A stretch of DNA of 61,060 nucleotides from Oligoflexia bacterium (lineage in GTDB: Bacteria; Bdellovibrionota; UBA1018; CAIMNF01): assembly GCA_903845155.1 (NCBI GenBank), contig CAIMWN010000232.1, positions 1 through 61,060 on the forward strand. The letters run 5' to 3'. Shown here piece after piece: positions 44,351-61,060 of the stretch. The position numbers and the translations under genes are program-made. The notes beneath the pieces were generated by a model. It saw only the letters and a list, made by a program, of their open reading frames with translations, had not been told where the DNA came from and did no database searches. Within the stretch, counting starts at the first letter, position 1. Every line of letters starts with the position of its first letter.

Positions 44351-45805
44351 TTAGTGTTGAAGCGGAATTCCTTTCAATAAATGAATGAGTGCGTTTGGCA
44401 TCACTCCGAGGGCAAATACAATTGCAGCAGATACCGCCACTACGGAGTGGCTCGCAACACTACCCTTCCATTCTGCAGCTGAGGGATCAGCATCGCGCAT
44501 TACCATCAAGGCAATGGGACGAAGGTATGCATACGCGCTCACTACTGCACAAAGAGCAGCGATCACTACATAGAAGACTTCTCCGGTATTTACAGAGGAA
44601 ATGAAGACAAAATATTTCGTAAAGAAACCGATCGTAAATGGCATTCCGGCCATAGAGAATAGAAACAAACTCCACATCACTACGTTAAATGGCTGCTTTT
44701 TCATTAACCCGGTCAAATCGATTAGCTCAACTCCTGCATCCAGTTTTGGTTCCGATTGACTAACGAGAACAAACAACCCGCAGGTCATCAGAGAATAGCC
44801 AAAAAGATAAATCCACACGGAGTAAATTAAATCTGGCTGATTCATTGATCCTAATAATCCGAGTAAGACATAACCCGTGTGAGAAATAGATGAGTAGGCG
44901 AGCATTCGTTTTAAATTGGTTTGAGTAATCACAATCGCACTACCAATAATTAGACTGAGCACGGCTGCCACCCTAATGAGTTGCTTCAACGTTTCAAAAT
45001 AGGGAGCGAGTTCAGGACTTTTGAAATCTGCAATGTGCAAAATTCTAGCTAGCACCACGAAAGAGGCAGTAGACATCACGGTTGCCATGATTCCTGTCAC
45101 TGATGTTGGTGACCCCTCATAGACATCGGGCTTCCAAAAATGAAAAGGGACTGCGGCAACTTTGAAGAGAAATGAGATAAGGATAAGGATGTGGCCCATA
45201 TAAAACAAAGTAAGATCACCTTGGGCCTTTTGAGACCAAGTATAAATTTCAGAAAGGTGGGTAGTTCCCGTTGCCCCGAAGATAAAAGAAGCCCCTAAAA
45301 GAAACACGGCTCCCACCACTCCGCCCAAAATAAAGTACTTAATAGCGGCTTCGTTCGATCTTGAATCATTGCGCCTAAATCCAGCCAGTGTGTATGCAGG
45401 TAGAGACATCACTTCAAGCGCAATAAAGGTAACCAGCAAATCCTTAGAACAAATGAGCACAGACGCACCTAAAATCAATATCAAGAGCAAATGATAGTAA
45501 TCGGAGAGGTGAATCTCTTCTTTAGTAAGGTAACGAGAGGTGCCAATGATAAAGAAAATTCCGAGACCGCATAGCAAAGACAAAGCGGTGGTTGTAAGAG
45601 CAGATATTTCAAACACTCCGTTGAACAGTGATTGTGGTGTTTCCACATTCACACTCATGGAAAGAAAAAGAGTAACCACCAAGGTCAATAATGCAAAAAT
45701 CTGAGCGGGTCTCTTCGTGTCTATTCTCACTACACTTACTAACATCGTAATGAGAATTCCCATCGAAAATGCAATCCATGGATAAGCGGGTTCAAGTTCA
45801 CTCAT
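44351..45805 (-). CDS. nuoN: NADH-quinone oxidoreductase subunit N
   Basis: NuoN is one of three antiporter-like proton-pumping subunits of complex I. The 484-residue protein has about 14 helices, the key glutamate in FIALEVMSLPAYTLAG (about residue 133), the lysine region FKVAAVPFHFWKPDVYEG (about 217-234) and LKRMLAYSSISHTGYVLLG. Canonical residues are intact. It follows nuoM by 2 bp and precedes the TPR gene. Confidence 0.95.
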   Translation of the reverse strand: MSELEPAYPWIAFSMGILITMLVSVVRIDTKRPAQIFALLTLVVTLFLSMSVNVETPQSLFNGVFEISALTTTALSLLCGLGIFFIIGTSRYLTKEEIHLSDYYHLLLILILGASVLICSKDLLVTFIALEVMSLPAYTLAGFRRNDSRSNEAAIKYFILGGVVGAVFLLGASFIFGATGTTHLSEIYTWSQKAQGDLTLFYMGHILILISFLFKVAAVPFHFWKPDVYEGSPTSVTGIMATVMSTASFVVLARILHIADFKSPELAPYFETLKQLIRVAAVLSLIIGSAIVITQTNLKRMLAYSSISHTGYVLLGLLGSMNQPDLIYSVWIYLFGYSLMTCGLFVLVSQSEPKLDAGVELIDLTGLMKKQPFNVVMWSLFLFSMAGMPFTIGFFTKYFVFISSVNTGEVFYVVIAALCAVVSAYAYLRPIALMVMRDADPSAAEWKGSVASHSVVAVSAAIVFALGVMPNALIHLLKGIPLQH

Positions 45806-45807
45806 AT

Positions 45808-47262
45808 TTAATTTCCCTTTAAAAATATTTCTGGCTGAAATCCGAAGTAAATCAGCATTAGTACCAAGACTGATAAAACAACTAGGTCGTACCCGGCCAG
45901 ATCCTTTGCTCCGGTATTAGAATTGATGGTGACGGTGGTGTTTTTACCAAAACCCAGTTGTTGATAGAATTTAAGCATATAGACAGCCCCTAGAATGACG
46001 CCAACCCCAGAGATGATCGTACACAGCGCACTTGCTGCATATGAATGAATCAAAACTAAAAACTCACCGGCAAAGTTGAGTGTGCCAGGCAAAGACATCG
46101 ACGCTAGGACGGCGATAAAAAAAACCGTAAATAACGTTGGATAAAGTTTTGCGAATCCGTGACTGGTTTCAAGACCAAGATCAGTTTGTCGTTCTTGAAT
46201 TAAATGCAAAATATAAAATAGCATGGCACTTACCAGCGTGTGCCCAACGCTAAGAAGTATTGCGGAAGCGTTACCGCCAGGATTGAACGTAAAGACGCCC
46301 ATCATTACAAAACCGAGGTGACTCACTGAGGAATAAGCAAGTAAGCTTTTCGAATCATTAGATCGAATCGCGAGAAATGCGGCGTAAACCACTGAAATTG
46401 CAGCGAGGGTAAGCAGAATACCTTGATATCCTTGGCTGGATTCAACAAAGATGGGGCTCACAAAACGAATGAATCCAAAAACACCGAGCTTAGAAAGGAT
46501 CGCAGACATCCAAATCGTGGCGGGCATCGGGGCCAGAGTATAGACATCTTTGAGCCAACCATGAAATGGAAAGAGAGGAACTTTAATTGCAAAGGCTAGA
46601 AAAAAGCCAATAAAACACCATTTCAGATTTGGTGAGTTTTTACCCGCCGTTGCCTGGATCAGATCGAATAAGTTACTCGAATAAATACCGGATTGTTCAT
46701 GATAAAGATTCACCAGATAAAATATCGACACGAGCATCAGGACAGAGCCCAGAAAGCTCATTAAGAAAAATCGAAAAACTGCGGTAGCTTTTGCCTGTTC
46801 GCCCCAAATACCCACCATAAAAATCATAGGAATAAAGACAGCTTCATAAGCGAGATAGAACACGATTAAGTCGGCACTTAAAAAAGCAGTATTTAAAGCG
46901 GAGACGAGAAAGAAACCAAGTGAAGTAAAAAGTCTCGGATTCTTTCGGTACCAAACACCTTTTAGACTAAATGCCAGGATCGCTACGATGGCATTTAATG
47001 CTACAAACCAGCCAGAAACTGAATCTAATCTAAAATTGAGCGAAACTCCAATTTCAGGAAGCCAAGCAAGTTTATGTTCAATTACTGCCGCCGAAGTGCT
47101 AGCAAAAAGTACGGGCGCCGCCTGATAAAGTGTGAGCGCCAAAATACAAAGGCTTGAAAAAACTGCGTAAAGGCGCTGAATGCCCTTGGGTATAAACCAA
47201 GCAAGCATAGAGGCCACCAAGGGAACAGTGAGAAGTACGGTGAGTGAATTATAGTTTACCAT
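45808..47262 (-). CDS. nuoM: NADH-quinone oxidoreductase subunit M
   Basis: NuoM is the second antiporter-like subunit. From the ATG at 47262 it is 484 residues; a TTG 9 bp upstream is the longer alternative. The proton-path glutamate is in FYLAYEAVFIPMIFMVG (about residue 135), the lysine in FAIKVPLFPFHGWLKD (about 225), and SLLAYSSVSHLGFVMMG follows. The start lies 14 bp inside the end of nuoL. All motifs normal. Confidence 0.95.
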   Translation of the reverse strand: MVNYNSLTVLLTVPLVASMLAWFIPKGIQRLYAVFSSLCILALTLYQAAPVLFASTSAAVIEHKLAWLPEIGVSLNFRLDSVSGWFVALNAIVAILAFSLKGVWYRKNPRLFTSLGFFLVSALNTAFLSADLIVFYLAYEAVFIPMIFMVGIWGEQAKATAVFRFFLMSFLGSVLMLVSIFYLVNLYHEQSGIYSSNLFDLIQATAGKNSPNLKWCFIGFFLAFAIKVPLFPFHGWLKDVYTLAPMPATIWMSAILSKLGVFGFIRFVSPIFVESSQGYQGILLTLAAISVVYAAFLAIRSNDSKSLLAYSSVSHLGFVMMGVFTFNPGGNASAILLSVGHTLVSAMLFYILHLIQERQTDLGLETSHGFAKLYPTLFTVFFIAVLASMSLPGTLNFAGEFLVLIHSYAASALCTIISGVGVILGAVYMLKFYQQLGFGKNTTVTINSNTGAKDLAGYDLVVLSVLVLMLIYFGFQPEIFLKGN

Positions 47263-49087
47263 ATTGTCCAACCCCCAAAAAAACCCAAGCCATTATGGCT
47301 ACAATCGCAATTAAAATCATCATCAGATAAGCCTGAGTTGAACCAACCTGTACCACTCGAAATAAATTTCCAGACAAACCCACTACGGCCGTGCTCCAGC
47401 GCAGTGTTCGCTGAACAATCATTTCTTCAACATAAGTAGTGAACCACTTTGAAAGTGTTCCGGTCCCTTTGGCAAAAACGCTCAAATATGCCAAATCAAC
47501 ACCCATTCCACTCATTAAAAATTGATTTGTTTTTTCTTCGCCTTCAAAATTCTTGTATTTTTGATAGGCAATTCCCGCCCCCAAACCAGCAAGAATTACA
47601 CTTGCAGCCATGACCATCATCTCTTGGCCACTATGCTCGTGGTGCTCTCCAAACCATCCTCCAACCAAAGATAAGACTCCAAGTACCATCAGTGGTATGG
47701 CCATCGTCATAGGAGCTTCGTGAATATGCTTTTGTTTTGCCGGATCAACACGCGATTTACCAAAGAACACCAAAACTAAAAGTCTCGTCATGTAGAAAGC
47801 GGTAAGAAAAGCACTTGCCGCGGCGATGATAAATAGCATTACGTTTCCGTGAGGCGAGCTGAGAGATTGCCACAGAATCTCGTCCTTAGAAAAAAAGCCA
47901 CTAAAAGGCGGCAGCCCTAAGATTGCAGCCCATCCTGCGATAAAGGTGATGGACGTAATCGGAAGCTTCGCTCTCAGTGCACCCATTTTGAAAATATTCT
48001 GTTCTTCATGCAGGGCGTGGATCACGCTTCCCGCACCCAAGAACAAGAGTGCCTTAAAAAATGCGTGAGTCATCACGTGGAACACACCACTCTCAAATGA
48101 ACCCACACCGCAGGCCAAAAACATAAATCCAAGCTGTGAAATAGTGGAATAAGCGAGGATCTTTTTAATATCGGTTTGCGCACAAGCCATGAGGGCAGCA
48201 ACAAATGCGGTGGTAACGCCAACCATTCCAATCACTGTTAACACAGTATTGGACGCTTCAATGATGGGAGAGAGTCTGGTTAATAAATAAATACCGCTCG
48301 TCACCATCGTTGCAGCATGAATGAGTGCAGAGACTGGTGTTGGACCAGCCATGGCATCAGGAAGCCAGGTGAAGAGAGGAATTTGTGCCGATTTTCCGGT
48401 GCAGGCAAAGAAAATCAGGAGACCAAATACGGTCGTAACATGAGGAGTGAGTGTTGCCTTTTGAAGGTCTATTAAATCAAGCGAGCCCACAAATTTATAG
48501 GCGATGAACATGGCGATTAAAAAACCAAGATCACCAATCCGATTCATGATGAAGGCCTTTTGCCCTGCCAACACCTTATCCTTATCTTGATACCAATATC
48601 CGATCAGCAAATAACTGGCGAGCCCAACGCCTTCCCAACCCAAAAAAACATGAGGAAGATTTGATCCCAACACCAGATTCAACATCATAAAACAAAATAA
48701 ATTCAGAAATGAGAAGTATTTAGCAGGCGTTTCATCTTCACTCATATAGCCAATGGAATAGAGATGAATCAATGAGCCTACGCCAGTAATAATCAAGACG
48801 AAGAGCGAACTCAACGAATCAAGTCTGAGCGCGAAACTGACGTTTAAACCACCTAGCTTCATCCATTGGAAGAGGGTTTGTTCGAAGAGTCTTCCATCTG
48901 CTGGAAGTTGCGAAAGCATATAATAGTAAGTACAAGCGACTAAAAATGCCGCAAACATGACTCCGGTCGCAATCACACCTGAGATCATGGCGGAAGATTT
49001 TTGTTCTGATCTTGCCATTTTGAGGTGATAAAAGCCGTTAAATAGAAATCCAATCAATGGTAAAAAAATGAGAAGTGATAATGACAC
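47249..49087 (-). CDS. nuoL: NADH-quinone oxidoreductase subunit L
   Basis: NuoL is the distal proton-pumping subunit with a lateral helix along the membrane arm. The 612-residue protein has VFLGWEGVGLASYLLIGYW (Glu near residue 150), GKSAQIPLFTWLPDAMAGP (Lys near 235), KILAYSTISQLGFM and GLPPFSGFFSKDEI. The C-terminal region (about 500-612) contains the amphipathic helix and a final anchor. The start is GTG with AGGGA upstream. It begins 1 bp after nuoK. Confidence 0.96.
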   Translation of the reverse strand: MSLSLLIFLPLIGFLFNGFYHLKMARSEQKSSAMISGVIATGVMFAAFLVACTYYYMLSQLPADGRLFEQTLFQWMKLGGLNVSFALRLDSLSSLFVLIITGVGSLIHLYSIGYMSEDETPAKYFSFLNLFCFMMLNLVLGSNLPHVFLGWEGVGLASYLLIGYWYQDKDKVLAGQKAFIMNRIGDLGFLIAMFIAYKFVGSLDLIDLQKATLTPHVTTVFGLLIFFACTGKSAQIPLFTWLPDAMAGPTPVSALIHAATMVTSGIYLLTRLSPIIEASNTVLTVIGMVGVTTAFVAALMACAQTDIKKILAYSTISQLGFMFLACGVGSFESGVFHVMTHAFFKALLFLGAGSVIHALHEEQNIFKMGALRAKLPITSITFIAGWAAILGLPPFSGFFSKDEILWQSLSSPHGNVMLFIIAAASAFLTAFYMTRLLVLVFFGKSRVDPAKQKHIHEAPMTMAIPLMVLGVLSLVGGWFGEHHEHSGQEMMVMAASVILAGLGAGIAYQKYKNFEGEEKTNQFLMSGMGVDLAYLSVFAKGTGTLSKWFTTYVEEMIVQRTLRWSTAVVGLSGNLFRVVQVGSTQAYLMMILIAIVAIMAWVFLGVGQYGKL

Positions 49088-49088
49088 C

Positions 49089-49403
49089 TTAGTCCCTCAA
49101 CATCTGGATTTGATCGGAATCCACCGTTTTTAAAGTTCGAAACATAGCAATGATCAGGCCTAGGCCGACTGCAGACTCTGCCGCAGCAACGGTCATTACA
49201 AATAATACAGTGATGTCGCCCTGAAGGGTTTGATGCATTCGCGAAAATGCAACAAAACTTAAGTTTACGGCGTTAAGCATCAGCTCCACACACATCAACA
49301 TCACTAAGAGATTTTTTCTAAGAATTACGCCCAGCAATCCTATCGCAAATACAATCATTGCGACCACCAGTAGCATCCACGGTTCAACCATTACTTCTGT
49401 CAT
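49089..49403 (-). CDS. nuoK: NADH-quinone oxidoreductase subunit K
   Basis: NuoK (104 residues, three helices) carries two buried glutamates essential for proton transfer, seen here in CVELMLNAVNLSF (about residue 39) and VAAAESAVGLGLII (about 75). Its ATG overlaps the nuoJ stop by 4 bp (ATGA). Confidence 0.96.
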   Translation of the reverse strand: MTEVMVEPWMLLVVAMIVFAIGLLGVILRKNLLVMLMCVELMLNAVNLSFVAFSRMHQTLQGDITVLFVMTVAAAESAVGLGLIIAMFRTLKTVDSDQIQMLRD

Positions 49404-49939
49404 ACACTGCTCCCCTTGAGTGACTTCCGTTTAGCAAGTGCTACGGTCGCGACAATGGCACCCAACAACAAAAACGAAGCAAGTTCGAAATGAAAACTGT
49501 AATCGGTAAAGAGCGCTTCAGAAATAACCTTAAAGTTTCCACCGAGCTCGTTAATTTTATCTTCAGTAAGATTACCCGTCGCCTGTATTTCTTTAGCCCT
49601 GAGAACCGTCTTGAGCAAAATTCCAAGTAATCCAATTACGCCAAACGTAGTAATTGCCTTAAATAGGCCCCCGCTTTCCTTCAAATCCAAAACGGGTGTG
49701 TCCGCATTGAGAAGCATAATTACAAATACAAACAAAACCATAATTGCGCCCGTGTAGACCATGATTTGTAGCGCAGCAACCAAGTGGGCGCCCATCACGG
49801 CGTAAAGGCCGGCGAATGAAAAGAAAACAAGAATGAGTGAAAACGCAGATGAAACCGGATTCTTTTTCAGGATCACGAAAATGGAACTGATGATTGCAAT
49901 AGTTGAGAAGGCCGAAAAAGCCACCATAGACCAGCTCAT
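49400..49939 (-). CDS. nuoJ: NADH-quinone oxidoreductase subunit J
   Basis: NuoJ (179 residues) has five helices, including the third with the conserved ALQIMVYTGAIMVLFVFVIM that shows the pi-bulge helix signature. A loop of about 45 residues precedes the last helix, FELASFLLLGAIVATVALAK. The ATG overlaps the nuoI stop (ATGA). Confidence 0.95.
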   Translation of the reverse strand: MSWSMVAFSAFSTIAIISSIFVILKKNPVSSAFSLILVFFSFAGLYAVMGAHLVAALQIMVYTGAIMVLFVFVIMLLNADTPVLDLKESGGLFKAITTFGVIGLLGILLKTVLRAKEIQATGNLTEDKINELGGNFKVISEALFTDYSFHFELASFLLLGAIVATVALAKRKSLKGSSV

Positions 49940-50382
49940 TTCTTATTCCCCCTCTGCTCGAGCAGGAAGTCCTTAGTATAGACCTCTCTGTGCTCTTGGC
50001 TCATTTCATAAATATTACTGAGTTTGATTGCGTCTTTTGGACAAGCTTCCTCGCACATACCGCAAAAACAACAGCGAAGAATATCAATTTCGAATTTAAT
50101 CGGATATTTTTCTTTGTCTTCACGCTCGCCGGCAACGATGTGAATGCATTCAGCAGGGCAAACCGTTGGGCAAAGCATACAAGCGGTGCAATTTTCAACC
50201 TCGTTTACGGTCTTAATATAATGTTGGCCGCGATATCTTGGCGAGTAATCTCTGCGTTGTTCCGGAAACTGGAGGGTAACCTTCTCGTGAAATAAAAAGT
50301 TTCTCAACGTGATCCAAAGACCGCGCACGATTTCTATCAAGTAGAACCGATTCAAAATGCCTGGTTTTCGTTGAGCAAGCAT
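49936..50382 (-). CDS. nuoI: NADH-quinone oxidoreductase subunit I
   Basis: NuoI carries clusters N6a and N6b on the way from the peripheral arm to quinone. The 148-residue protein has two CxxCxxCxxxCP motifs, CTACMLCPTVCP (about residue 62) and CCFCGMCEEACP (about 101). The N-terminal amphipathic region is present. It abuts nuoH with no gap. Confidence 0.96.
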   Translation of the reverse strand: MLAQRKPGILNRFYLIEIVRGLWITLRNFLFHEKVTLQFPEQRRDYSPRYRGQHYIKTVNEVENCTACMLCPTVCPAECIHIVAGEREDKEKYPIKFEIDILRCCFCGMCEEACPKDAIKLSNIYEMSQEHREVYTKDFLLEQRGNKK

Positions 50383-51468
50383 CTAGAGTACTCCTTTATA
50401 AATCAGAATTCCGGTAACGAAGAGATTTACGAGACCGAGAGGGAAAAGAACTTTCCAACCTAAATTCATCAGTTGATCAAATCTAAATCTTGGAAGCGTC
50501 CACCGAACCCATACAAAAAACCACATGAAAAAAGCCACCTTAATCACAAACGACACCCCTTGAAAGAGCACCGTAACGAGAAGGACATCCACTTGAGTGA
50601 TATTGGCAACTTGTTGCACCACCCAGGCAAGTCCTGGAAGCAGCTGCCATCCGCCGAAAAACAAGGTGGCGATCAAGGCAGACGCAACCGACATATTAAT
50701 GAATTCACCCATCATGAATAGAGCAAATTTCATGGAACCATACTCAAGGTGATATCCAGCAATCAACTCCGATTCACCTTCAGGCAAATCGAATGGCAAA
50801 CGATTGGTTTCAGCGAATACAGAAATGAGAAAGAGGAGAAAGCCAACTGGTTGTATAAAAATACCCCACTTTGGAACGTTAAGGCCGGCAACGGTAAAGA
50901 GTGTTTCGCCTTGTGCGGCGGCAATGTCGCCCAATCTCACACTTTGAAAAATCATCATCAAGCCCACAATTGACAAGCCAAGCGTCAACTCATAGCTAAT
51001 CATTTGTGCGGAACTTCTTAAACTACCTAAAAGCGAATACTTATTATTGGACGCCCATCCCGCCATTATAATTCCATAGACACCAAGTGAAGCAATCGCG
51101 AAACAGTAGAGTACGCCCACATCTAAATTAGCCACTTGAAAATTAAAATGATTTCCATCCATGCTGAGTGAGCCAGCGAAGGGGATGACCGCAAAAGTCA
51201 TGAATGCCGGGATCACCACTAGCCATGGTGCGATCGTATAGTAGAACTTATTTACGTGAGTGGGAGTGCTGTCTTCTTTAAAAATAAATTTAAGCACGTC
51301 GCAGGCTGCTTGAAACATTCCAAACGGCCCCATCCTGTTTGGCCCAAGTCTGTTTTGAATCAACGCCGATCCTCGTCGTTCGACAAAAAGCATGATAGGC
51401 ACCACTGCAAGCAATCCTGTTAATACAATTGCAACTTTGATCAGCATGAATGAAATTTCAGGGGTCAT
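50383..51468 (-). CDS. nuoH: NADH-quinone oxidoreductase subunit H
   Basis: NuoH forms the quinone-binding chamber with NuoB and NuoD. The 361-residue, eight-helix protein has VERRGSALIQNRLGPNR (about residue 30), ETNRLPFDLPEGESELIAGY (about 222), and FVWVRWTLPRFRFDQLM near the end. The ATG overlaps the nuoG stop by 4 bp. Length and motifs are normal. Confidence 0.96.
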   Translation of the reverse strand: MTPEISFMLIKVAIVLTGLLAVVPIMLFVERRGSALIQNRLGPNRMGPFGMFQAACDVLKFIFKEDSTPTHVNKFYYTIAPWLVVIPAFMTFAVIPFAGSLSMDGNHFNFQVANLDVGVLYCFAIASLGVYGIIMAGWASNNKYSLLGSLRSSAQMISYELTLGLSIVGLMMIFQSVRLGDIAAAQGETLFTVAGLNVPKWGIFIQPVGFLLFLISVFAETNRLPFDLPEGESELIAGYHLEYGSMKFALFMMGEFINMSVASALIATLFFGGWQLLPGLAWVVQQVANITQVDVLLVTVLFQGVSFVIKVAFFMWFFVWVRWTLPRFRFDQLMNLGWKVLFPLGLVNLFVTGILIYKGVL

Positions 51469-52889
51469 GGATTCGCTCCCACTCTTGCCTTTTTATTAGT
51501 AAGCAACATGAGGACTTCAGATAGGGATTTACATTTACCTCTAGGAAGAACTGCTCGTTTTAGTTTTTGCTCTATCCCCTGGTGATTGACTATGGTTCCA
51601 TCTTTCTCACTAAATGCGAGCCCCGGCAGAATCATGTCAAACTGCGATGCATCTCCTTCGAGATAAACACCAACAGCAATCACACGTTTAGCATTAATTT
51701 TAGGTAATTTTGCTCGACCGGCGCTCATCACTACTACCGTATCTGCTTTAATAGTATCATTCATCAAAGGGGCGATCCCTAACTTCTCCGCACCATTTAA
51801 ATTTGAAGTTTTACTTTTCATTCTTAATATCTGATCAAGCGCTCCGTCTTGTTGGGTACTCGTCAGCCCTGGTGTTCCAAAATGCTGTATTGTTGCCCCC
51901 GGATGTTGAAGTGCAATGTATTCCTTAATGTGAGTAAGCTCTTCTTGCGTTAAGTCACTTCCCACTAAAAAGGTTGGCTTTTGACCGTCGATTTCTTCCT
52001 TTATTCCAAGGATTCCATCTTCCCATGAAATGGTCTTCCAACCACCTTCGGCTTTCACTTTCGGTTCAATAATTCGAGTTGGATCTTGAGTGTGCTGATA
52101 ATTAAATCTTCCCTCGTCGCACATCCAATAGCGATTCACGTCTAAATTTTCTAAGGGAACACAACGATAGATTACATCTCCTTCGTGCTGAATTTCCATA
52201 TTACAGCCTTTTGAGCAGCCCTCGCAAACGGTGGTCGTTTTTTTCAACATCCATGCGCGTTTTTTAAAGCGGAAATCTTTTAAAGTGAGTGATCCGGTTG
52301 GACAGATATCTGAATAGTTGCCAGCATATTCTGTCTGAAGTGTTTTGCCATCAATGGTCGTGATATCGATATCATTTCCACGTTTAATTGCGACCATTTC
52401 ATGAATTCCTGCAATCTCGTCGCCAAAGCGAATACAGCGTGTGCAGTGAATACAACGGTTCATGTTTTTTTGAATTACGGGCCCCATGTTTACGTCAACA
52501 TAGGTTCTTCGTTCTTCTGATCCACGCATATAGGCGCTTCCATAGCCATAAGAATTATCTTGAAGATCACATTCGCCCGCCTTGTCACAAATGGGACAAT
52601 CAAGCGGATGATTTAAAAGCAAAAACTCCATGGTGCCTGCGCGACCTTTTTTAACGTTTTCACTATTTGTTTTCACAACCATGCCTTCAGTCGCCATGGT
52701 GGAACAAGCTGTTTGGAGTTTCGGCATTTTCTCAACTTCGACGTAACACATTCTACATTGAGCAACCACACTCAGTCCTGGATGGTAACAAAACACGGGA
52801 ATTTCAACACCCGCGCGCTTTGCTACTTTAACTAAATTTTCACCGGCAGTGAATTCGACTTCTTTTCCGTCGATCATGCATTTAGGCAT
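51465..52889 (-). CDS. nuoG: NADH-quinone oxidoreductase subunit G, short form
   Basis: NuoG holds several iron-sulfur clusters of the NADH arm. The 474-residue protein has the [2Fe-2S] ligands in CYHPGLSVVAQCRMC plus a later Cys, the His/Cys motif HPLDCPICDKAGECDLQDNS, CIHCTRCIRF, and the fourth cluster motif CEGCSKGC...CDEGRF. After residue 260 only about 210 residues of degenerate molybdopterin-like domain remain, so it is much shorter than E. coli NuoG (about 900) or the usual 680-690. All cluster ligands appear intact. It overlaps nuoF by 8 bp and nuoH by 4 bp. Confidence 0.93.
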   Translation of the reverse strand: MPKCMIDGKEVEFTAGENLVKVAKRAGVEIPVFCYHPGLSVVAQCRMCYVEVEKMPKLQTACSTMATEGMVVKTNSENVKKGRAGTMEFLLLNHPLDCPICDKAGECDLQDNSYGYGSAYMRGSEERRTYVDVNMGPVIQKNMNRCIHCTRCIRFGDEIAGIHEMVAIKRGNDIDITTIDGKTLQTEYAGNYSDICPTGSLTLKDFRFKKRAWMLKKTTTVCEGCSKGCNMEIQHEGDVIYRCVPLENLDVNRYWMCDEGRFNYQHTQDPTRIIEPKVKAEGGWKTISWEDGILGIKEEIDGQKPTFLVGSDLTQEELTHIKEYIALQHPGATIQHFGTPGLTSTQQDGALDQILRMKSKTSNLNGAEKLGIAPLMNDTIKADTVVVMSAGRAKLPKINAKRVIAVGVYLEGDASQFDMILPGLAFSEKDGTIVNHQGIEQKLKRAVLPRGKCKSLSEVLMLLTNKKARVGANP

Positions 52890-54168
52890 AACGTTTCTGT
52901 CCTTTTATATATGCTTCAAATTCAGGTCTGAATTTTTTTACAAAACTGATCACTGGCCCAGCGGCCGCATCACCAAGCGCACACAGCGTCTTACCGCCAA
53001 TGTTTTGCGCCACATCTACCAATAAATCCAAATCAGTTGGTTTTGCTTCTCCATGAATAATTTTATGCAAAATGGATTCCATCCAATGACAACCCTCGCG
53101 GCACGGTGTGCACTGTCCACAAGATTCGTGTGCATAAAATTTGGTAATTCTTAAAAGCAATTTTACCAAATCAGTGTCTTCGTGAATCACCATGATTGCA
53201 GCTGAACCCATCATGGTGCCTACCTTCATCAAAGGTTCCACGTCATAAACAACGTCTATTTCATCGGCGGTTAAAATTGGAGCAGATGATCCGCCGGGAA
53301 TGACGGCTTTCAGTTTTTTATCATTGAGAATTCCTCCGCCAAGATCGTAGATAATTTGTCTTAGGGTTAGGCTTCCCGCGGGTGCTTCATAAACACCTGG
53401 TTTTTTAACATGACCAGAAAGCGAGAGGAGGCGAGTGCCGCCTGATTTATCAATTTTACCAAGTTTCGCAAATGCGTCGCCGCCCATGCGAATGATGTGA
53501 GGAACATTCGCTAAGGACTCAACATTGTTGACGGCGGTTGGACATGAAAACGCGCCGGAAATGGCTGGAAATGGCGGCTTAACCCTTGGTTCTCCACGCT
53601 TTCCTTCCAAGGAATTTAGGAGACCTGTTTCTTCACCGCAAATATAAGCGCCCGCACCACGATGAACGGTAACGTCGAGACTATAAGCGGTGCCGAAAAT
53701 ATTCTTACCCAAGTAACCTTTTTCATAAGCCTCCTCGATGGCGGCATTTAAGAGCTTCGCTTCATTCGCATATTCTCCGCGAATATAAATATATGCGTGT
53801 TTACATCCAATAGCGTAAGACCCAATGACTAATCCCTCAATCAACACATGCGGAATATATCGCATGATTTGTCTGTCTTTGCAGGTTCCAGGCTCAGACT
53901 CATCGGCATTGCATACAAGATATTTCGGTTTTTCTGAATTCTTAGGAATGAAACTCCATTTCATTCCCATAGGAAATCCAGCGCCGCCACGTCCTCTGAT
54001 GTTTGCTTTCTTCACTTCATCAATTACTTGGTCCGGTGTCATTTCGGTCAAAACTCTTTTTGCTGCCTGATAACCATTCATGCTTTCAAGGTAATAAGAT
54101 AGGTTCCTATTAGCATCTTTCCAAAAATGCTGAACAAACAAGGTGTCACTAGCGACTGGTGTGCTCAT
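52882..54168 (-). CDS. nuoF: NADH-quinone oxidoreductase subunit F
   Basis: NuoF binds NADH and FMN and holds cluster N3. The 428-residue protein has GRGGAGFPMGMKW (NADH-binding, about residue 62), NADESEPGTCKDR, the FMN loop HRGAGAYICGEETGLLNSLEG, and the cluster ligands ESCGQCTPCREGC with TLCALGD. The first base of the nuoF start codon is shared with the nuoE stop (TAATG). Normal length. Confidence 0.97.
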   Translation of the reverse strand: MSTPVASDTLFVQHFWKDANRNLSYYLESMNGYQAAKRVLTEMTPDQVIDEVKKANIRGRGGAGFPMGMKWSFIPKNSEKPKYLVCNADESEPGTCKDRQIMRYIPHVLIEGLVIGSYAIGCKHAYIYIRGEYANEAKLLNAAIEEAYEKGYLGKNIFGTAYSLDVTVHRGAGAYICGEETGLLNSLEGKRGEPRVKPPFPAISGAFSCPTAVNNVESLANVPHIIRMGGDAFAKLGKIDKSGGTRLLSLSGHVKKPGVYEAPAGSLTLRQIIYDLGGGILNDKKLKAVIPGGSSAPILTADEIDVVYDVEPLMKVGTMMGSAAIMVIHEDTDLVKLLLRITKFYAHESCGQCTPCREGCHWMESILHKIIHGEAKPTDLDLLVDVAQNIGGKTLCALGDAAAGPVISFVKKFRPEFEAYIKGQKRYA

Positions 54169-54653
54169 TATTTAACTCCTTGTTTAATTTTTTCGATATA
54201 ATCATTCAACGAGTTTACGTCGAGGCTCTCGACATAATCATCATTCGCCATCATCGCAGGAGCCGTAGTACACGCGCCCAAGCATTCTTCTTCTGAAAGG
54301 GTAAAGAGCCCGTCAGCGGTGGTCTCACCGCACTTAATCCCCAGTTTTTTTTCCGCAAAACCCATCAATTCATCGGAACCCCTTAGGCAGCACGCAACAT
54401 TAGTACAGATACGCAGGTGGTTTTTGCCTACTGGCTTTAAGTTGTACATAGTATAAAAGCTTGCCACTTCACGAATCTGAGCCGGATGAACACCGATATA
54501 TTCGCCAATCTCTTCCATCACTTCAGCCGGCAACCACCCGCACTCTTCTTGCGCTTGATGAAGAGCAGGTAAGATGAGCGCCTTTTTACTTGGGTAGCGA
54601 GGCTCGAGTTTCTTCATTACAGTATAAAATTTTTCAGAAAGATTTTTTGCCAT
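54168..54653 (-). CDS. nuoE: NADH-quinone oxidoreductase subunit E
   Basis: NuoE carries the off-path [2Fe-2S] cluster N1a. The 161-residue thioredoxin-like protein has the ligands in ICTNVACCLRG (about residue 85) and EECLGACTTAPAMM (about 126). It lies 1 bp after nuoD. Standard family member. Confidence 0.96.
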   Translation of the reverse strand: MAKNLSEKFYTVMKKLEPRYPSKKALILPALHQAQEECGWLPAEVMEEIGEYIGVHPAQIREVASFYTMYNLKPVGKNHLRICTNVACCLRGSDELMGFAEKKLGIKCGETTADGLFTLSEEECLGACTTAPAMMANDDYVESLDVNSLNDYIEKIKQGVK

Positions 54654-54654
54654 A

Positions 54655-55935
54655 TTAACGATCTAATTCTCCCGCAATTACATTGATACTTCCTAGTGCC
54701 GCCACTAAGTCGGCAATGAACTCTCCCTGAATCATTGGATCGAGTCCTTGATAATGCCAAAATGAAGGGCTCCGAATTCTCATACGATGTGCTGAAGAAT
54801 CACCCTTACTGATGATATAAAAACCCAGCTCTCCATTCGCAGCCTCGAAAGACGTATACGCCTCTCCTGGCGGAACCTTAAATCCAGTCATAAAAAATTT
54901 GAAATGGTGAATCAGGCCTTCCATGGTGTTGTAAACCACGTCTTTGTCTGGAATCCGGGTACGTTTGTCATCCGCCCAAACGGGGCCCTTCTTGATGCGA
55001 TCAGCACATTGAGTGATCATTTTTAGAGATTGTTTCATTTCTTCCATGCGAACAAAGTAGCGATCAAACACATCACCCACTTGTGCAACGGGAATATCGA
55101 AATCTATTTTATCGTAGAACATACAAGGTTGGTCGCGGCGCAAATCAATATCGATTCCGGCAGCTCTCGCATTTGGACCCGTAAAACTATATTTCAAGCA
55201 CTGTTCTTTATTGAATATGGCCACGTCTTTGGTTCTTTTAAGCCAGATTCGATTTTCGGTGAGAAGTTGATCCATTTCTTCAATGACCGCTTCCGTTTCC
55301 TTGACCCATTCTTTTACTTCTTTCTCCCAACCGTCAGGAGCGTCGGCCATCAAGCCCCCAATTCTGGTATAGGAAGTAGTGAGTCTGGCTCCACAAAGTT
55401 TCTCGATCAAAGTATAGGCTTTTTCTCTTTGGTGATACCCGTAAAGAAAATAAGAAAATGCACCCAAATCTACTGCATTAATGCCGACGCAAATCAGATG
55501 ATCGATGACTCGCGCAATTTCTGCGCACATCATTCTGATCCAAATTGCTCGTTCCGGCACCTCAATCCCCATCATTCGCTCAACGGCCATGGCATAGGTC
55601 ACATTATTGATGAGTGAAGAACAGTAATTGAGGCGATCAGTGTAAACCACGTATTGATGATAGGTTCTGTTTTCACCGAGTTTTTCTTTGCCTCGATGAG
55701 TATATCCAAACTCACAGTACGACTTTTCAATAATCTCACCATTCAACTTTGCCATGCATCGAAACGCTCCGTGCATCGCAGGATGAGTGGGGCCAATGTT
55801 CACGAATACTTTCGAATCCTCAAAAATGTCATCGCTATCTTGTTTAACTGAAATGTTGTACTGCCCCGGAAGACCGAATCGGGCAATATCGAGTGGAACA
55901 TCATTAATAAACTTTTTATTTTCTGAATCACTCAT
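54655..55935 (-). CDS. nuoD: NADH-quinone oxidoreductase subunit D
   Basis: NuoD, related to the large subunit of NiFe hydrogenases, lines the quinone pocket. From the ATG at 55935, which overlaps the nuoC stop (ATGA), the protein is 427 residues; an upstream in-frame start would add an unlikely 30 residues. It has NIGPTHPAMHGAFR (about residue 44), GYTHRGKEKLGENRTYHQ (quinone-site His), and ends with GSINVIAGELDR. Normal. Confidence 0.96.
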   Translation of the reverse strand: MSDSENKKFINDVPLDIARFGLPGQYNISVKQDSDDIFEDSKVFVNIGPTHPAMHGAFRCMAKLNGEIIEKSYCEFGYTHRGKEKLGENRTYHQYVVYTDRLNYCSSLINNVTYAMAVERMMGIEVPERAIWIRMMCAEIARVIDHLICVGINAVDLGAFSYFLYGYHQREKAYTLIEKLCGARLTTSYTRIGGLMADAPDGWEKEVKEWVKETEAVIEEMDQLLTENRIWLKRTKDVAIFNKEQCLKYSFTGPNARAAGIDIDLRRDQPCMFYDKIDFDIPVAQVGDVFDRYFVRMEEMKQSLKMITQCADRIKKGPVWADDKRTRIPDKDVVYNTMEGLIHHFKFFMTGFKVPPGEAYTSFEAANGELGFYIISKGDSSAHRMRIRSPSFWHYQGLDPMIQGEFIADLVAALGSINVIAGELDR

Positions 55936-56492
55936 TTTAATAGCTCCGGATCTAAGGGTTCTGGTGTGATGAAAACCTGATACCCTCTCAGTGGATAATC
56001 TTTTCTTAACGGGTGGCCTTCCCAACGAATATCCATCAGAATTCTTCTGAGGTCAGGATGCCCCTCAAACTGAATTCCGAACATATCGAAGATTTCTCGC
56101 TCTGCCCAATTGGCCCCTGGCCAAATAGGGATTAAAGTAGCAATCGTTTCATTTTCATTGAGCTTAACTTTCACTCGAATACGCGCTTTATTTTCTGGAT
56201 TCATTAAGTGAACGATTAAATGAAAACGGGGAGCAGTCTCTTCGTCGCTTGCTGTATAATCAGTAAGAAAACTATAACCATGTTTTTCTTTAAGAACGGT
56301 TAGGAGATTATGAAATCCATTTTTACTTACGAATATAATGGGTAGATCAGTTTTATCTGTGCCCGGCTTCAAGATTGCTTCAATTTTCTCGCCAAAATCG
56401 GCCTTGAGTTCTTCAGTTTGTTGATCCCAAAGTGCGCCGAATTTCTCCAAGAAATAGCCGTAAATGGTAGGAACAGGCGTATTAACGTCCAT
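55932..56492 (-). CDS. nuoC: NADH-quinone oxidoreductase subunit C
   Basis: NuoC (30-kDa subunit) helps build the quinone-proximal arm. I take the ATG at 56492 as start, six bases after GAGAGG, giving 186 residues; a GTG at 56519 is the longer option. The signature WAEREIFDMFGIQFEGHPDLRRIL (about residues 130-152) and GHPLRKDYPLRGYQ are clear. It overlaps nuoB by 11 bp and nuoD by 4 bp. Confidence 0.94.
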   Translation of the reverse strand: MDVNTPVPTIYGYFLEKFGALWDQQTEELKADFGEKIEAILKPGTDKTDLPIIFVSKNGFHNLLTVLKEKHGYSFLTDYTASDEETAPRFHLIVHLMNPENKARIRVKVKLNENETIATLIPIWPGANWAEREIFDMFGIQFEGHPDLRRILMDIRWEGHPLRKDYPLRGYQVFITPEPLDPELLK

Positions 56493-56991
56493 GAGAAACC
56501 TCTCGAATTTGGCGCTCACGTTTTAGCGAATGTGTGTCTCCGCGAGAGATCATCTCCTCCAAACGAAGAAGTGCATTGATCAATCCCTCAGGTCCCGGTG
56601 GACAGCCTGGCACATAAACATCAACGGGAATGACAGTATCAATCCCTTGAGTCACGCTGTACACGTTAAAGATACCGCCAGAAGATGCGCAAGCGCCCAT
56701 GGAAATTACCCATTTTGGATCAGCCATATGATCGTAAATGTTTCGTAGTACCGGGGCCATTTTTAGATTTACAATTCCTGCGCAAATAAGCAAGTCACTC
56801 TGCCTTGGCGAAAACCTTACTACCTCTGCTCCAAATCTCGCCATGTCATAACCAGCAGCCAGAGTCGACATTAGCTCGATTCCACAGCAGCTCGTTCCAA
56901 AGGGAAGTGGAAAGAGTGAGTTCTTCCTGGCCCAATTCACCATTGTGTCTAACTTCGTAGTAAAAAAATCAGCTGAACCGTCTTTTGCCAT
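56482..56991 (-). CDS. nuoB: NADH-quinone oxidoreductase subunit B
   Basis: NuoB holds cluster N2, the last electron carrier before quinone. The 169-residue protein has the ligands in GTSCCGIELMS (about residue 35), SMGACASSGGIF (about 98) and VPGCPPGPEGL (about 130). Length and spacing are typical. It starts 40 bp after nuoA. Confidence 0.97.
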   Translation of the reverse strand: MAKDGSADFFTTKLDTMVNWARKNSLFPLPFGTSCCGIELMSTLAAGYDMARFGAEVVRFSPRQSDLLICAGIVNLKMAPVLRNIYDHMADPKWVISMGACASSGGIFNVYSVTQGIDTVIPVDVYVPGCPPGPEGLINALLRLEEMISRGDTHSLKRERQIREVSHGR

Positions 56992-57031: not shown

Positions 57032-57394
57032 CTATTGCCAGTCGAGCGCACCTTTTCTGATTACATAGATATAACCCACCAACAAAACCACAGTGAATGA
57101 GATCATTTCGAGAAGGATAAAATTACCGGTAGATATAAATTTCTTATAGACCACTGCCCAAGGGTAGAAAAACACAGTCTCAACATCAAAAAGAAGAAAG
57201 AGAATCGCAACCATATAAAATCGAACTGATACGCGTTTGTTTTTTCCCGCGTCGAAGCCGGGAATTCCACACTCAAATGGAGTGTCCTTGGTTTTATTGG
57301 GGTTCTTTGGTCCTAGAAGTGTAGTAATCAACAAGACCGCTCCACCAATACACACACCCGCTGCCATCATGACCAGCACTGGAAGGTATTCCAT
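57032..57394 (-). CDS. nuoA: NADH-quinone oxidoreductase subunit A
   Basis: NuoA (120 residues, three helices) lies next to the quinone chamber. It has TPFECGIPGFDAG (the flexible loop that senses the active/deactive state) and LLFDVETVFFYPWA with conserved acidic residues. The ATG at 57394 is 33 bp after the NuoN-like gene, so nuoA appears to be an internal gene of a longer operon, not the first. Confidence 0.96.
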   Translation of the reverse strand: MEYLPVLVMMAAGVCIGGAVLLITTLLGPKNPNKTKDTPFECGIPGFDAGKNKRVSVRFYMVAILFLLFDVETVFFYPWAVVYKKFISTGNFILLEMISFTVVLLVGYIYVIRKGALDWQ

Positions 57395-57427: not shown

Positions 57428-58786
57428 TTACCATAAATATGGAATCGGGCGATCATTTAATAATGAAATCAACACCGGCTTGAGGGCCGTCAATGCAATG
57501 ACACCAGTAAAATACACTAGCAGAAGTGTGATTTCACCTACTGAGGTTTTTCGATAAGTCGCAATTCCATTTTTTACTAAAATGACTCGACCAAGCATCT
57601 GGAGACTGGCAAAACTAAGTAAAAACCATCCTGTCCCAAACCCAAAAGCAATCACAATTAAACCATTGTCCATCAAGTGATGAAAAAGTTGAAAGTATTG
57701 TTCCCCTAAAATGAGCGGCGGCATGCCTAAAATAGCGACCATTCCGAACAAGATATTAAATTTATTACTAAACTTTGTTTCTAAGAATGACTGGCCAACA
57801 AAAGTAAAAGTAAAAAGAAACGATAAAGCCAAAAGATAGAAAAGCGGTAGCGATTGTTCTGCGCCGAGTAAAACCGAAAACAAACCTAACCCTGCTGACG
57901 CATAAAGCACTGATGATAACCAAATGAAATGTTGATTGGTTCGAACAGCATTGATGGAGTGTTTCAGTGTGAAAGCTACTATGATTGCCCCAATCATGTT
58001 CTGTTCATACACCTTTAGAAAAAGACCTGATTCATTCATCAACGGAATTCCAAGCCTAAACAGAAACACACCTACGCTGACGAATACAAATAGAGCATGG
58101 AGAGAAACCCCAAAGGCGGAGTCACCACTCAAATTAAAGCCAAACAACATCAAACCACTTACCAAACAAACTAGAAAACCCGCACATAGAATTGGCAACC
58201 CTTGTGCGTTTTTAGACCATTCAATAAAATCAGAGAAATAAATTGAATTAGAAGTAAAGACCGCGATGAAAAATAATAATGAAAAGCCCACCATCAAAAG
58301 TAGAAGAGACAGTGAACCCTGGCTAAATGAGTTAATCCAACTACTGCTCTTCTTGGTTTCAATTAAAATGAAGCGCGTCAGGGCTTGGTAAATCCCAAAC
58401 CAACTCAAAACAAATAGCACAAGGCTTTGAGCACTAAAAATTCCAATAATAAATAGCCCAGCAAACAACACAAAGAGCATCGCTTTTTGTTTACTATAAA
58501 AGCTCATTTCCTTATGAAAATGAATATAAAGGCCCGACATAGAAACAACCAGCATTGAAAACAACTTTCCGAATGTTGAGAGCGCGTCTGACGACAGCAA
58601 TTTGTACGGCGACTCAAAATGACTTAGATCTGATCTGATGCCAAAATAAGCGAGCGTCGAAAAAGTGAGGAGTGAGAAAGCCGGACACAATGAAAGATGG
58701 GTAGTGGGTCGAAAACAAAGCAACCCTATTGAAAGAAAAATTTGAATTAAAATGATGATCTCGGGCAGCCAGTTTAAAAATGTCAT
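57428..58786 (-). CDS. degenerate NuoN-like membrane protein
   Basis: The 452-residue protein has about 12-14 hydrophobic helices and ends close to nuoA. It follows the helix plan of NuoN loosely. The positions that should carry the pump residues are changed: LVLFVLSWFGIYQALTRF has Trp where NuoN has the fifth-helix Glu, and the region matching FKVAAVPFHFWKP has GFNLSGDSAFG instead, without the lysine. It therefore looks like a complex I antiporter-type subunit that has lost proton chemistry. Its ATG overlaps the previous gene by 4 bp. Homology is inferred by pattern and position only. Confidence 0.55.
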   Translation of the reverse strand: MTFLNWLPEIIILIQIFLSIGLLCFRPTTHLSLCPAFSLLTFSTLAYFGIRSDLSHFESPYKLLSSDALSTFGKLFSMLVVSMSGLYIHFHKEMSFYSKQKAMLFVLFAGLFIIGIFSAQSLVLFVLSWFGIYQALTRFILIETKKSSSWINSFSQGSLSLLLLMVGFSLLFFIAVFTSNSIYFSDFIEWSKNAQGLPILCAGFLVCLVSGLMLFGFNLSGDSAFGVSLHALFVFVSVGVFLFRLGIPLMNESGLFLKVYEQNMIGAIIVAFTLKHSINAVRTNQHFIWLSSVLYASAGLGLFSVLLGAEQSLPLFYLLALSFLFTFTFVGQSFLETKFSNKFNILFGMVAILGMPPLILGEQYFQLFHHLMDNGLIVIAFGFGTGWFLLSFASLQMLGRVILVKNGIATYRKTSVGEITLLLVYFTGVIALTALKPVLISLLNDRPIPYLW

Positions 58787-59784
58787 TTGATTCCCGTCGT
58801 CTCAAGCCAATAAAATCCAACAGCGCAAAGCAGTTGAACTGCCACTACCAGTTCAAACTTCATCTTTGTTCCCCTCTCGTTTGGAACGAAAGGGCGATAC
58901 TCTCGTTCGTCATTGAGCATTAAAGCAATCATTTGAAATGAGTAAGCGGCCATAACTACTACAATCCATGCAAGTTGTAGCTGTACAATACTTCGAATCG
59001 AGTAATAGTAAGTTGAAAATCCAAGAAATCCCGGCAAACCAATCATCATTACGCGATACAGGGTTTTGAATGGCTTACTATTCTGTTTGCCGAGCATCAC
59101 TAATTTTGGTGCCGTCATGGAAAACGCAAACAAAGAGGCGAGGGCAATTTGTGTGATCGCATTACTTTCTGGCACTAAAAGAAACAATCCCAGCCCAAGC
59201 CATGACTGGGTGAGAAAGATGAGGAGTGATTTTGTTTTATAATAGGCAAAAGCAAAGACAGCACAAAACAAAAGCGTTCCAAGTCCCATTGAAGTGAGCA
59301 GCACATCCCATGTTTGCGCAAAATCAATTTTTACATCGCCTTTAATTTTAAATAATAGATTCAAGGTGATCAAACCCGGAAGAACGACAGAGTACAAATA
59401 GGCTTTAGAGCTCATCGACAAATAGTGCCGCTTAAATAAGATTGATAAAAAAGCATTGGGCAAAGTTAGTAAAAGACCAATTAATATCAAAAGGGGAGCA
59501 CCCTCCCAACCCAGCAGTGCCTGCCCCATGAGTGCAGTAAAACAGCCAAAAAGTCGCAAGCAGTAATATTTTTTACAAATCCCATGTTCGCTCTTTTTGC
59601 TATCGAGGGTTGCCACCACAAACGAAATAACCGTGAGCATTGTTAAAACAAGCAGGCTTGCCGTGACCGACTTTGAGAAAAGGGCAAGTCCTCCCAGCAA
59701 GAGCGGAATCAATCCCGCCGTACTTCCGGTAACTGCCCAAGATGCAAAAACAATTGCAGTAATATAACTAAATTCGAGGTTCAA
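58783..59784 (-). CDS. NuoL-like reduced antiporter membrane protein
   Basis: The 333-residue protein has about nine membrane helices. QALLGWEGAPLLILIGLLL (about residues 87-105) recalls the fifth-helix LGWEGVGLASYLLIG of NuoL and keeps the glutamate. MIGLPGFLGFSTYY near residue 250 recalls GLPPFSGFFSKD. The central lysine helices of NuoL seem to be absent, in line with its being half as long. It overlaps both neighbours by 4 bp. I infer an accessory or vestigial complex I membrane subunit. Confidence 0.5.
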   Translation of the reverse strand: MNLEFSYITAIVFASWAVTGSTAGLIPLLLGGLALFSKSVTASLLVLTMLTVISFVVATLDSKKSEHGICKKYYCLRLFGCFTALMGQALLGWEGAPLLILIGLLLTLPNAFLSILFKRHYLSMSSKAYLYSVVLPGLITLNLLFKIKGDVKIDFAQTWDVLLTSMGLGTLLFCAVFAFAYYKTKSLLIFLTQSWLGLGLFLLVPESNAITQIALASLFAFSMTAPKLVMLGKQNSKPFKTLYRVMMIGLPGFLGFSTYYYSIRSIVQLQLAWIVVVMAAYSFQMIALMLNDEREYRPFVPNERGTKMKFELVVAVQLLCAVGFYWLETTGIK

Positions 59785-60602
59785 TTGAGCCCCCCCCTGA
59801 GAATAAGAACAATGCTAACCCAAGCTACAACCAGCGCAAGAACGCCTACAAACACAGAATTAAAACGCAACCTAAACTCATTGGGAATACTAAACTCAGT
59901 CTTAATGGTTACGGGAACACCCTCTTTAATAAACGATGAAAGTGGCTCAAGCACGCTTAAAATCCTCGCCTGCACTCGTTCATAAATCTGCGTCATATTT
60001 GGTGATTTCACCTTGATCCAAATGAAAAGAACAAGAGCCACAATGATCATTCCTACCGCCGACCACAACAGAACATCCACTGCGACCCACTCTTGAACAT
60101 AAGAATAAAAGGGAATGAAAATAAAACCCAGGACAGGAACTTCAATAATCTTCAATACCAGTTCGCGCTTAGCGGATTTAAAAATGAGAAGAGCTTCAGA
60201 AACGATAAGAAAGAATGCAAAAGCGCCAATCACAAATTCAATTTGGATTTGCTTTCCAAAAAGATCATAAACAATGAGTAATGCGGGTAAGATGGGGAGT
60301 TTCGCTGTGCCAAAATTGACTGAAAAGATGATCGCTCCCATGGTCATCATAAACTCACGATAAGGATCGGGAAGCGCGGCGCCTAAAATCAAAAACAAGA
60401 CCGCAAGTGAGTCTTTTGCAAGCCCCGCTCGGTGTTTTGAATAGTAGCATCTGTACAGGAGCGAAAGCCCCGCAACGGCAACCACAGCTACATTTCCTGT
60501 AACTAAACTGCCCAATGCCGCGATGGCAAACGGAAGGATTTGCTTCTCTCTTACCACTGAAAGGATAGACGCAACGAGAACAACAATCGCAATCTCACTC
60601 AT
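59781..60602 (-). CDS. polytopic membrane protein of the nuo upstream block
   Basis: The 273-residue protein has about six helices in the first 200 residues, then an amphipathic stretch (VQARILSVLEPLSSFIKEGV) and a last anchor (FVGVLALVVAWVSIVLIL). No complex I subunit is recognised with confidence; the position between NuoK-like and NuoL-like genes suggests an antiporter-type or accessory subunit. Both its ends overlap neighbouring genes by 4 bp, so it is translated with them. Confidence 0.45.
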   Translation of the reverse strand: MSEIAIVVLVASILSVVREKQILPFAIAALGSLVTGNVAVVAVAGLSLLYRCYYSKHRAGLAKDSLAVLFLILGAALPDPYREFMMTMGAIIFSVNFGTAKLPILPALLIVYDLFGKQIQIEFVIGAFAFFLIVSEALLIFKSAKRELVLKIIEVPVLGFIFIPFYSYVQEWVAVDVLLWSAVGMIIVALVLFIWIKVKSPNMTQIYERVQARILSVLEPLSSFIKEGVPVTIKTEFSIPNEFRLRFNSVFVGVLALVVAWVSIVLILRGGLN

Positions 60603-60829
60603 TCCTGCGCCTCATTCCTAATCACAGACAAACAAACCAAAACCACAACGAGATTAATAAAAACAAAGCCAGAGAAGATCAAATCATTTTGAAACTTTCC
60701 TATAAACACCAACAAAATAGACAATGAAGCTCTCACTACTGCACGGGCGGCAGAGGCGGCCGACTGAGAACAAAACAACTCATAAATAGAGTAAGCAAAA
60801 GCAACGAGTGCGAACACAGATAAAATCAT
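60599..60829 (-). CDS. NuoK-like small membrane protein
   Basis: From the ATG at 60829 the protein is 76 residues with three hydrophobic helices. RASLSILLVFIGKF followed by FSGFVFINLVVVLVCL follows the layout of NuoK helices 2-3, but neither of the two functional glutamates of NuoK is present. The ATG overlaps the stop of the upstream gene (ATGA). A longer in-frame start at 60874 would lie inside that gene and is unlikely. Confidence 0.5.
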   Translation of the reverse strand: MILSVFALVAFAYSIYELFCSQSAASAARAVVRASLSILLVFIGKFQNDLIFSGFVFINLVVVLVCLSVIRNEAQE

Positions 60830-61060
60830 CGTCTTCTCCTCTCTATGATCATTGAAACCATCAGAAGTGCACACAATATAGAAACACCGATAAATAACGG
60901 AAATACGTCATCATTCCAAAGGTATTCTACCGTTGTCGAAACTTCTGCTGGCGGGGCTAACGGGAAAACACTGCAAAAGATGGCACCTAAAAACAAAGCC
61001 ACGATCATTGCTTTCGCTCTTTGTTTTATTTGAAGCGGTTGAGCGTCCTTATTTTGAAGC
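60826..61060 (-). CDS. partial NuoJ-like membrane protein, 5' end outside window
   Basis: The reading frame is open from the right edge of the window to a stop at 60826; an internal ATG is at 61008. The visible part has two helices, and its end, VEYLWNDDVFPLFIGVSIL and then LLMVSMIIERR, parallels the end of NuoJ (LFTDYSFHFELASFLLLG... then LAKRK). It overlaps the NuoK-like gene by 4 bp. Whether the gene starts at 61008 or outside the window cannot be decided here. Confidence 0.45.
   Translation of the reverse strand, partial: LQNKDAQPLQIKQRAKAMIVALFLGAIFCSVFPLAPPAEVSTTVEYLWNDDVFPLFIGVSILCALLMVSMIIERRRR

Follow-up and report, generated by a model that had tools for sequence, protein, structure and literature searches.

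A second complex I-like operon ahead of nuoA

The stretch of DNA examined here, called the window, is the whole of contig CAIMWN010000232.1 (GCA_903845155.1), 61,060 nucleotides (nt) from the genome of an Oligoflexia bacterium of the phylum Bdellovibrionota; it ends, with its contig, at position 61060. Five genes (O1 to O5) lie immediately ahead of its canonical nuo operon for complex I (Table 1). This block is the 3' half of a larger, second complex I-like operon, here termed auxiliary, whose subunits are given the letter of their Nuo counterpart with a prime. A preliminary description of the window had five genes joined by overlaps before nuoA, and these are indeed co-directional open reading frames (ORFs) chained by four overlaps of 4 nt. 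Three of these read ATGA, as had been said of all; the one between O3 and O4 reads TTGA because the start codon of O4 is TTG. The gap between the N' stop codon and nuoA is 33 nt, and the canonical set that follows is complete (nuoA-N, 14 genes), with NuoN, M, D, H, K and L matching solved complex I subunits.

In every congener with a sufficient contig, NuoB-, NuoD-, NuoH- and NuoI-like genes are found upstream of the block, and a divergent mfd precedes B'D'H'I' in both loci listed in full. In the genome of the window, B', D', H' and I' were found on contig C120. Exactly 20 nt at one end of C120 (L058:4954-4973) recur at the end of the window (contig C232, window 61041-61060), and the frame of the 5' part of J' on C120 (L058:4823-4972) continues across this overlap. 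The window therefore holds the 3' part of J', followed by K', L', M' and N'. The assembly break between the two contigs falls inside J'. In a related locus, L016, profile matches identify B' (PF01058, 1e-17), D' (PF00346, 5e-18) and I' (Fer4 dicluster). The preliminary description missed B', D', H' and I' because the contig ends; its suggestion of a second, altered membrane arm module went in the right direction, although what is encoded is a whole second complex with B', D' and I', Fe-S ligands kept.

The identity of the five products is not equally firm. O1 and O2 match J' and K' of congeners, in agreement with their earlier assignment as the end of NuoJ and as a NuoK without its glutamates. 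Comparison of O5 with the N' profile (hhalign) gave 95.9% over 437 columns, and the top Foldseek matches of its predicted model (pLDDT 82) are all complex I or Mrp antiporter-like subunits, mostly N/ND2 (best TM-score 0.79; VIA Z 34.8). O5 has the NuoN/M antiporter-like fold, and fold and residue alignment agree with the first view of it as NuoN-like without the Glu of transmembrane helix 5 (TM5) and the Lys of TM7. O4 was assigned by profile only (93.9% against M'), over the second half of M', which at full size has ~505 aa; its copy in L016 reaches Proton_antipo_M with E 7.6e-4, below the Pfam cut-off. The 'LGWEG' motif of O4, once taken as evidence of NuoL, had to be rejected as such, given that relatives lack it, L016 reads ASLGDHP there, and O4 aligns with M', in its C-terminal half, and not with L. 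O3 has no detectable similarity to the L' or M' profiles (0.5% each), its model is poor (pLDDT 67) and a fold search gave no match. Its assignment as L' is thus by position alone, and its 273 aa compare with ~640 aa in full-size L'. The actual order is J-K-L-M-N; of the nuoJ-K-L-N proposed earlier, J, K and N stand, and O3 had been left unnamed. Searches of Pfam and NCBIfam with the five window products gave no credible match.

Table 1. Genes of the window discussed in the text
Feature	Position	Strand	Remarks
O1 = J', 3' part, 77 codons, NuoJ-like	60826-61059	-	frame open at contig end
O2 = K', NuoK-like, 76 aa from ATG	60599-60829	-	no Glu at the two NuoK positions
O3 = L', 273 aa	59781-60602	-	assigned by position only
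O4 = M', 333 aa, TTG start	58783-59784	-	similar only to C-terminal half of full-size M'
O5 = N', 452 aa	57428-58786	-	NuoN fold over whole length; key Glu/Lys lost
Canonical nuoA	57032-57394	-	first gene of canonical nuo operon
Canonical nuoB-C-D-E-F-G-H-I-J-K-L-M-N	44351-56991	-	tested catalytic and pump residues kept except NuoN TM8 Lys
TPR protein, 931 aa, 3' of nuoN	41552-44347	-	

Residues kept, residues lost and selection

Key residues were named by motifs in the canonical window proteins, and we take them to correspond to the usual E. coli and mammalian numbering, except where PMC10212512 gives it. Counts refer to complete full-size copies, with partial ORFs excluded and G055, G057 and G177 tallied apart; the membrane subunits of the reduced family, to which the window belongs, are represented by three loci and the window. 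The four cysteines of cluster N2, ligands of a [4Fe-4S] centre, are kept in B' (28/29, then 29/29 three times), as are all eight cysteines of I', for two [4Fe-4S] centres, in 14/14 rows.

PMC10212512 names GluTM5, LysTM7, Lys/HisTM8 and Lys/GluTM12 as the central axis of complex I. M' has the TM5 Glu in 0/31 copies, the TM7 Lys in 0/31 (Arg in 31/31), the TM8 Lys in 1/31 (Pro in 27) and the TM12 Glu in 1/31; N' keeps the TM5 Glu in 1/29 and the TM7 Lys in 0/29; and the weakly aligned L' retains the TM5 Glu in 0/28, the TM7 Lys in 1/28 and the TM12 Lys in 0/28. None of the axis was found in the four reduced copies aligned. The two NuoK glutamates of the E-channel are absent from K' (0/31 and 0/31, with Gln in 26 and 22; 0/4 in reduced copies), as are the J' Tyr (0/34) and the Asp and Glu of A' (0/26). 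In D', the Asp and the second His are the motif counterparts of the His-Asp pair said, in the same paper, to donate protons to quinone. Both are missing (0/30 each), the quinone Tyr is present in 1/30, and the ten reduced copies have none of the three. Around this former quinone region D' has acquired new near-invariant residues (W61 30/30, R137 30/30 and H133 28/30, L072 numbering), which point to a re-patterned site and argue for changed chemistry over decay.

The canonical proteins of the window and 13 further loci served as a control. The tested residues were kept in H, J, K, L and M (14/14), in D (12/12 rows covering the site) and, for NuoN, at the TM5 Glu, TM7 Lys and TM12 Lys (14/14). 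Mean retention in the auxiliary set was 0.104 over the 26 key sites vs 0.341 over 701 other canonical-invariant sites, and 3 of 20,000 permutations were as low as the key sites; G014 and the partly kept sites were included in this comparison. The loss is therefore aimed and not a matter of general drift. The sequence shows a route for electrons, with neither a classical quinone site nor a proton path.

The auxiliary reading frames are intact. In the unsaturated full-size pair L082/L078, the ratio of nonsynonymous to synonymous substitution rates (dN/dS) was 0.017 for H', 0.109 for I', 0.025 for J', 0 for K', 0.088 for L', 0.043 for M' and 0.038 for N'. Three close congeners of the reduced family gave 0.025-0.117 for B'-N' where computable, at high dS, and 0.006-0.041 for their canonical genes. 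In the pair L081/L080, auxiliary genes other than auxI gave 0.112-0.271; auxI itself (0.69, a wrongly extended ORF) and saturated pairs were left out. Judged by these ratios, the auxiliary genes are under purifying selection, and intact frames with low dN/dS argue against simple decay.

Distribution in the phylum

O5 was detected (E 0.001) in the window genome and in 9 of 11 congeners, that is, in 10 of the 58 genomes searched and in none of the others, which is beyond what chance would give. Among 191 genomes of the phylum, 46 had a match to I' at 1e-30. Of these, 43 belong to the order and one is G177; the other two are among three genomes that share only the class. A scan of named genomes gave 44 auxiliary loci, all from metagenome-assembled genomes with titles mostly of Bdellovibrionales, Oligoflexia and Bacteriovoracaceae, below which there was a sharp drop to apparently ordinary NuoI genes.

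Full-size families of the same order carry A'B'C'D'H'I'J'K'L'M'N', near full length and without EFG, in the same place. All 11 genes are complete in 18 of the 48 profile-annotated loci, the remainder being mostly cut by contig ends, of the reduced family, or with genes missed by the profiles. The distance from the end of N' to the nuoA that follows was scored in 31 loci and is 6-264 nt in 29 of them; the gap count leaves out G177's own nuoA (L153rc) and a locus with a miscalled start (-115). In 8/8 reduced loci the distance is 19-50 nt. The earlier proposal to look for the block in relatives is thus answered by its presence in the same place, and neither unrelated protein families nor random occurrence was found: O5 has a NuoN fold and the placement of the block is constant. 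The window family has a cut-down form of the operon, in which C' is lost and L' and M' are about halved; the window genus lacks A' as well as C', and C' is also absent from its sister genus, G012.

In a NuoD tree of 69 rows, unrooted and with some long branches, the reduced family forms one group (99/99) inside the auxiliary set, beside L089 (98/85), and canonical NuoD stands apart (100/100). G177 has a stand-alone 11-subunit operon in which the pump residues of M and N are kept, and the auxiliary operon of G014 (L154, 5474-15606) is intermediate (M' TRKE, N' ERLR). G014 keeps the M' TM8 Lys and TM12 Glu, the N' TM5 Glu and the D' Tyr. Candidate ordered steps would run from G177, with the residues present, through G014, where they are partly lost, and most of the order, where they are lost, to the window family, with loss and truncation. 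Two of the 12 species of the genus, G004 and G007, have no auxiliary operon and keep canonical nuoA-N; in G004, mfd directly adjoins nuoA, and the G007 sequence there is closely similar. The operon is thus useful but dispensable.

Many other Bdellovibrionota carry a second set of NuoB-C-D-I genes (L187:5966-10430, also L188, L191 and L196), which was considered as a source of the auxiliary operon and rejected as a different module. The set in L187 keeps the canonical quinone residues and is followed by a 635-aa membrane and Fe-S protein, without a membrane arm; L188 has a similar frame of 671 aa.

Possible role of the auxiliary complex

We give about even odds to the operon encoding a repurposed, non-pumping 11-subunit complex I that was miniaturised in the window family. 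The donor of such a complex would be a soluble carrier of low potential, either ferredoxin or flavodoxin. From it, electrons would flow by way of I' and B' to an acceptor between B', D' and H', whose re-patterned cavity would no longer work as a classical quinone site. Electron transfer would proceed without proton pumping, and the membrane arm would persist as a non-conducting anchor and scaffold. In a wider form, which we regard as rather probable, the operon represents an order-wide Bdellovibrionota paralogue, stripped of quinone and pump residues with its electron wire kept and made together with a working complex I. This would make it a built-in partner of complex I or, alternatively, the first complex I that does not pump and has a new electron acceptor.

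Several observations weigh against a repurposed, non-pumping enzyme. The N' TM12 Lys is kept in 21/29 copies (Arg in 6), the first His of D' in 21/30, the first Glu of H' as Glu/Asp in 29/33 and the H' Asp in 18/33, and the change of the M' TM7 Lys to Arg preserves the charge. The alignments of L', and those of reduced copies to canonical proteins, are weak, and dS is saturated for most pairs. The 11-subunit operon of G177 also lacks the second NuoK Glu, so that this loss alone need not mean that function is lost, and G004 and G007 do without the operon. Moreover, the donor, the acceptor and even the assembly of the auxiliary complex are ones that we infer, as is any contact with canonical complex I.

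The main rival, which we hold possible though clearly less probable, is that the auxiliary proteins join canonical complex I as a pseudo-enzyme, be it in a heterodimer, as an assembly scaffold, which the preliminary description had also proposed, or as a regulator, with little redox chemistry of their own. Their genes immediately precede nuoA, apparently in the same operon, a structural role would be in keeping with the loss of quinone as well as proton residues, and subunits might be shared, since the genus lacks A' and C'. However, Fe-S cysteines kept almost without exception and the new D' invariants both suggest chemistry, and two species retain canonical nuo without the auxiliary operon. 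The shared apparent operon could also mean that the auxiliary complex borrows canonical NuoEFG to act as an alternative, non-pumping NADH dehydrogenase; with C' lost in the reduced family, we consider this improbable.

The preliminary description also offered a decaying duplication held by operon structure. The loss of key residues, the halving of L' and M', the long branches and the clean absence in G004 and G007 could be read as signs of a relic. Yet the frames are intact, dN/dS is low for H', L', M' and N' of L082/L078 and in the genus pairs, the losses spare the cysteines and strike pump sites selectively, and the two species lack the block cleanly, so we consider decay very improbable. 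Just as little credit is given to an ordinary second proton-pumping isozyme with misaligned or relocated key residues. The remaining N' TM12 Lys, M' TM7 Arg and some H' acids would suit it, but adjacent motifs (WPFHGW in M', PDVLEGAPTP in N') still align where the key residue is altered, the changes extend to L', M', N', K', J' and D', and the canonical control is complete.

Among known systems, the 11-subunit complex I (e.g. of Desulfitobacterium), as described in PMC11238625, has the same A-B-C-D-H-I-J-K-L-M-N order without an NADH module as the full-size relatives, and ferredoxin has been proposed there as its donor. That enzyme is taken in the same account as a menaquinone-reducing, energy-coupling engine, whereas the auxiliary set has neither the quinone-protonating pair nor the pump residues and is followed directly by a canonical nuo operon of 14 genes. 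The canonical 14-subunit complex I of the same operon has homologous B, D, H, I, J, K, M and N; it keeps the tested residues, and the auxiliary set lacks E, F and G.

Ehr complexes are relatives of complex I with a repurposed active site, as are MBS and the group 4 [NiFe] hydrogenases, and one of the proteins that O5 matches in fold is MBS subunit H (6u8y). However, auxiliary D' ends in EIDR/EVDR like NuoD, and the order of the membrane genes is that of complex I, unlike in these three. The NiFe cysteine pairs of group 4 hydrogenases were not found: no Cys occurs at the invariant columns of reduced D' or the near-invariant columns of full-size D'. The Mrp antiporter is a MrpA-G gene set without Fe-S subunits; the auxiliary operon differs in having the Q-module subunits B', D' and I'. 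Bacteria reportedly have more than one type of complex I isozyme, said to be functional, with no pointer to a tandem or residue-stripped copy. Searches of the open-licence literature turned up no account, for Bdellovibrionota, of a second complex I that is in tandem or stripped of such residues.

There is still debate on how complex I couples redox chemistry to proton pumping. For Paracoccus, PMC9802314 describes variants of a single antiporter-like subunit whose activity lies anywhere between normal and almost none but which never uncouple, so an auxiliary complex acting as an ordinary quinone reductase minus its pump would be surprising. A whole paralogue stripped of exactly such residues, yet kept under selection with its Fe-S ligands, is a natural experiment on functions of the membrane arm other than pumping.

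The canonical operon itself shows one change. The TM8 Lys of NuoN (gene at window 44351-45805) is Ser/Thr in the window, G012, G008, G003, G002 and G010, and Lys in nine loci of other families; this change may accompany the reduction of the auxiliary operon. The TPR protein gene is also found 3' of nuoN in L020 and L023, the two relatives with a contig long enough.

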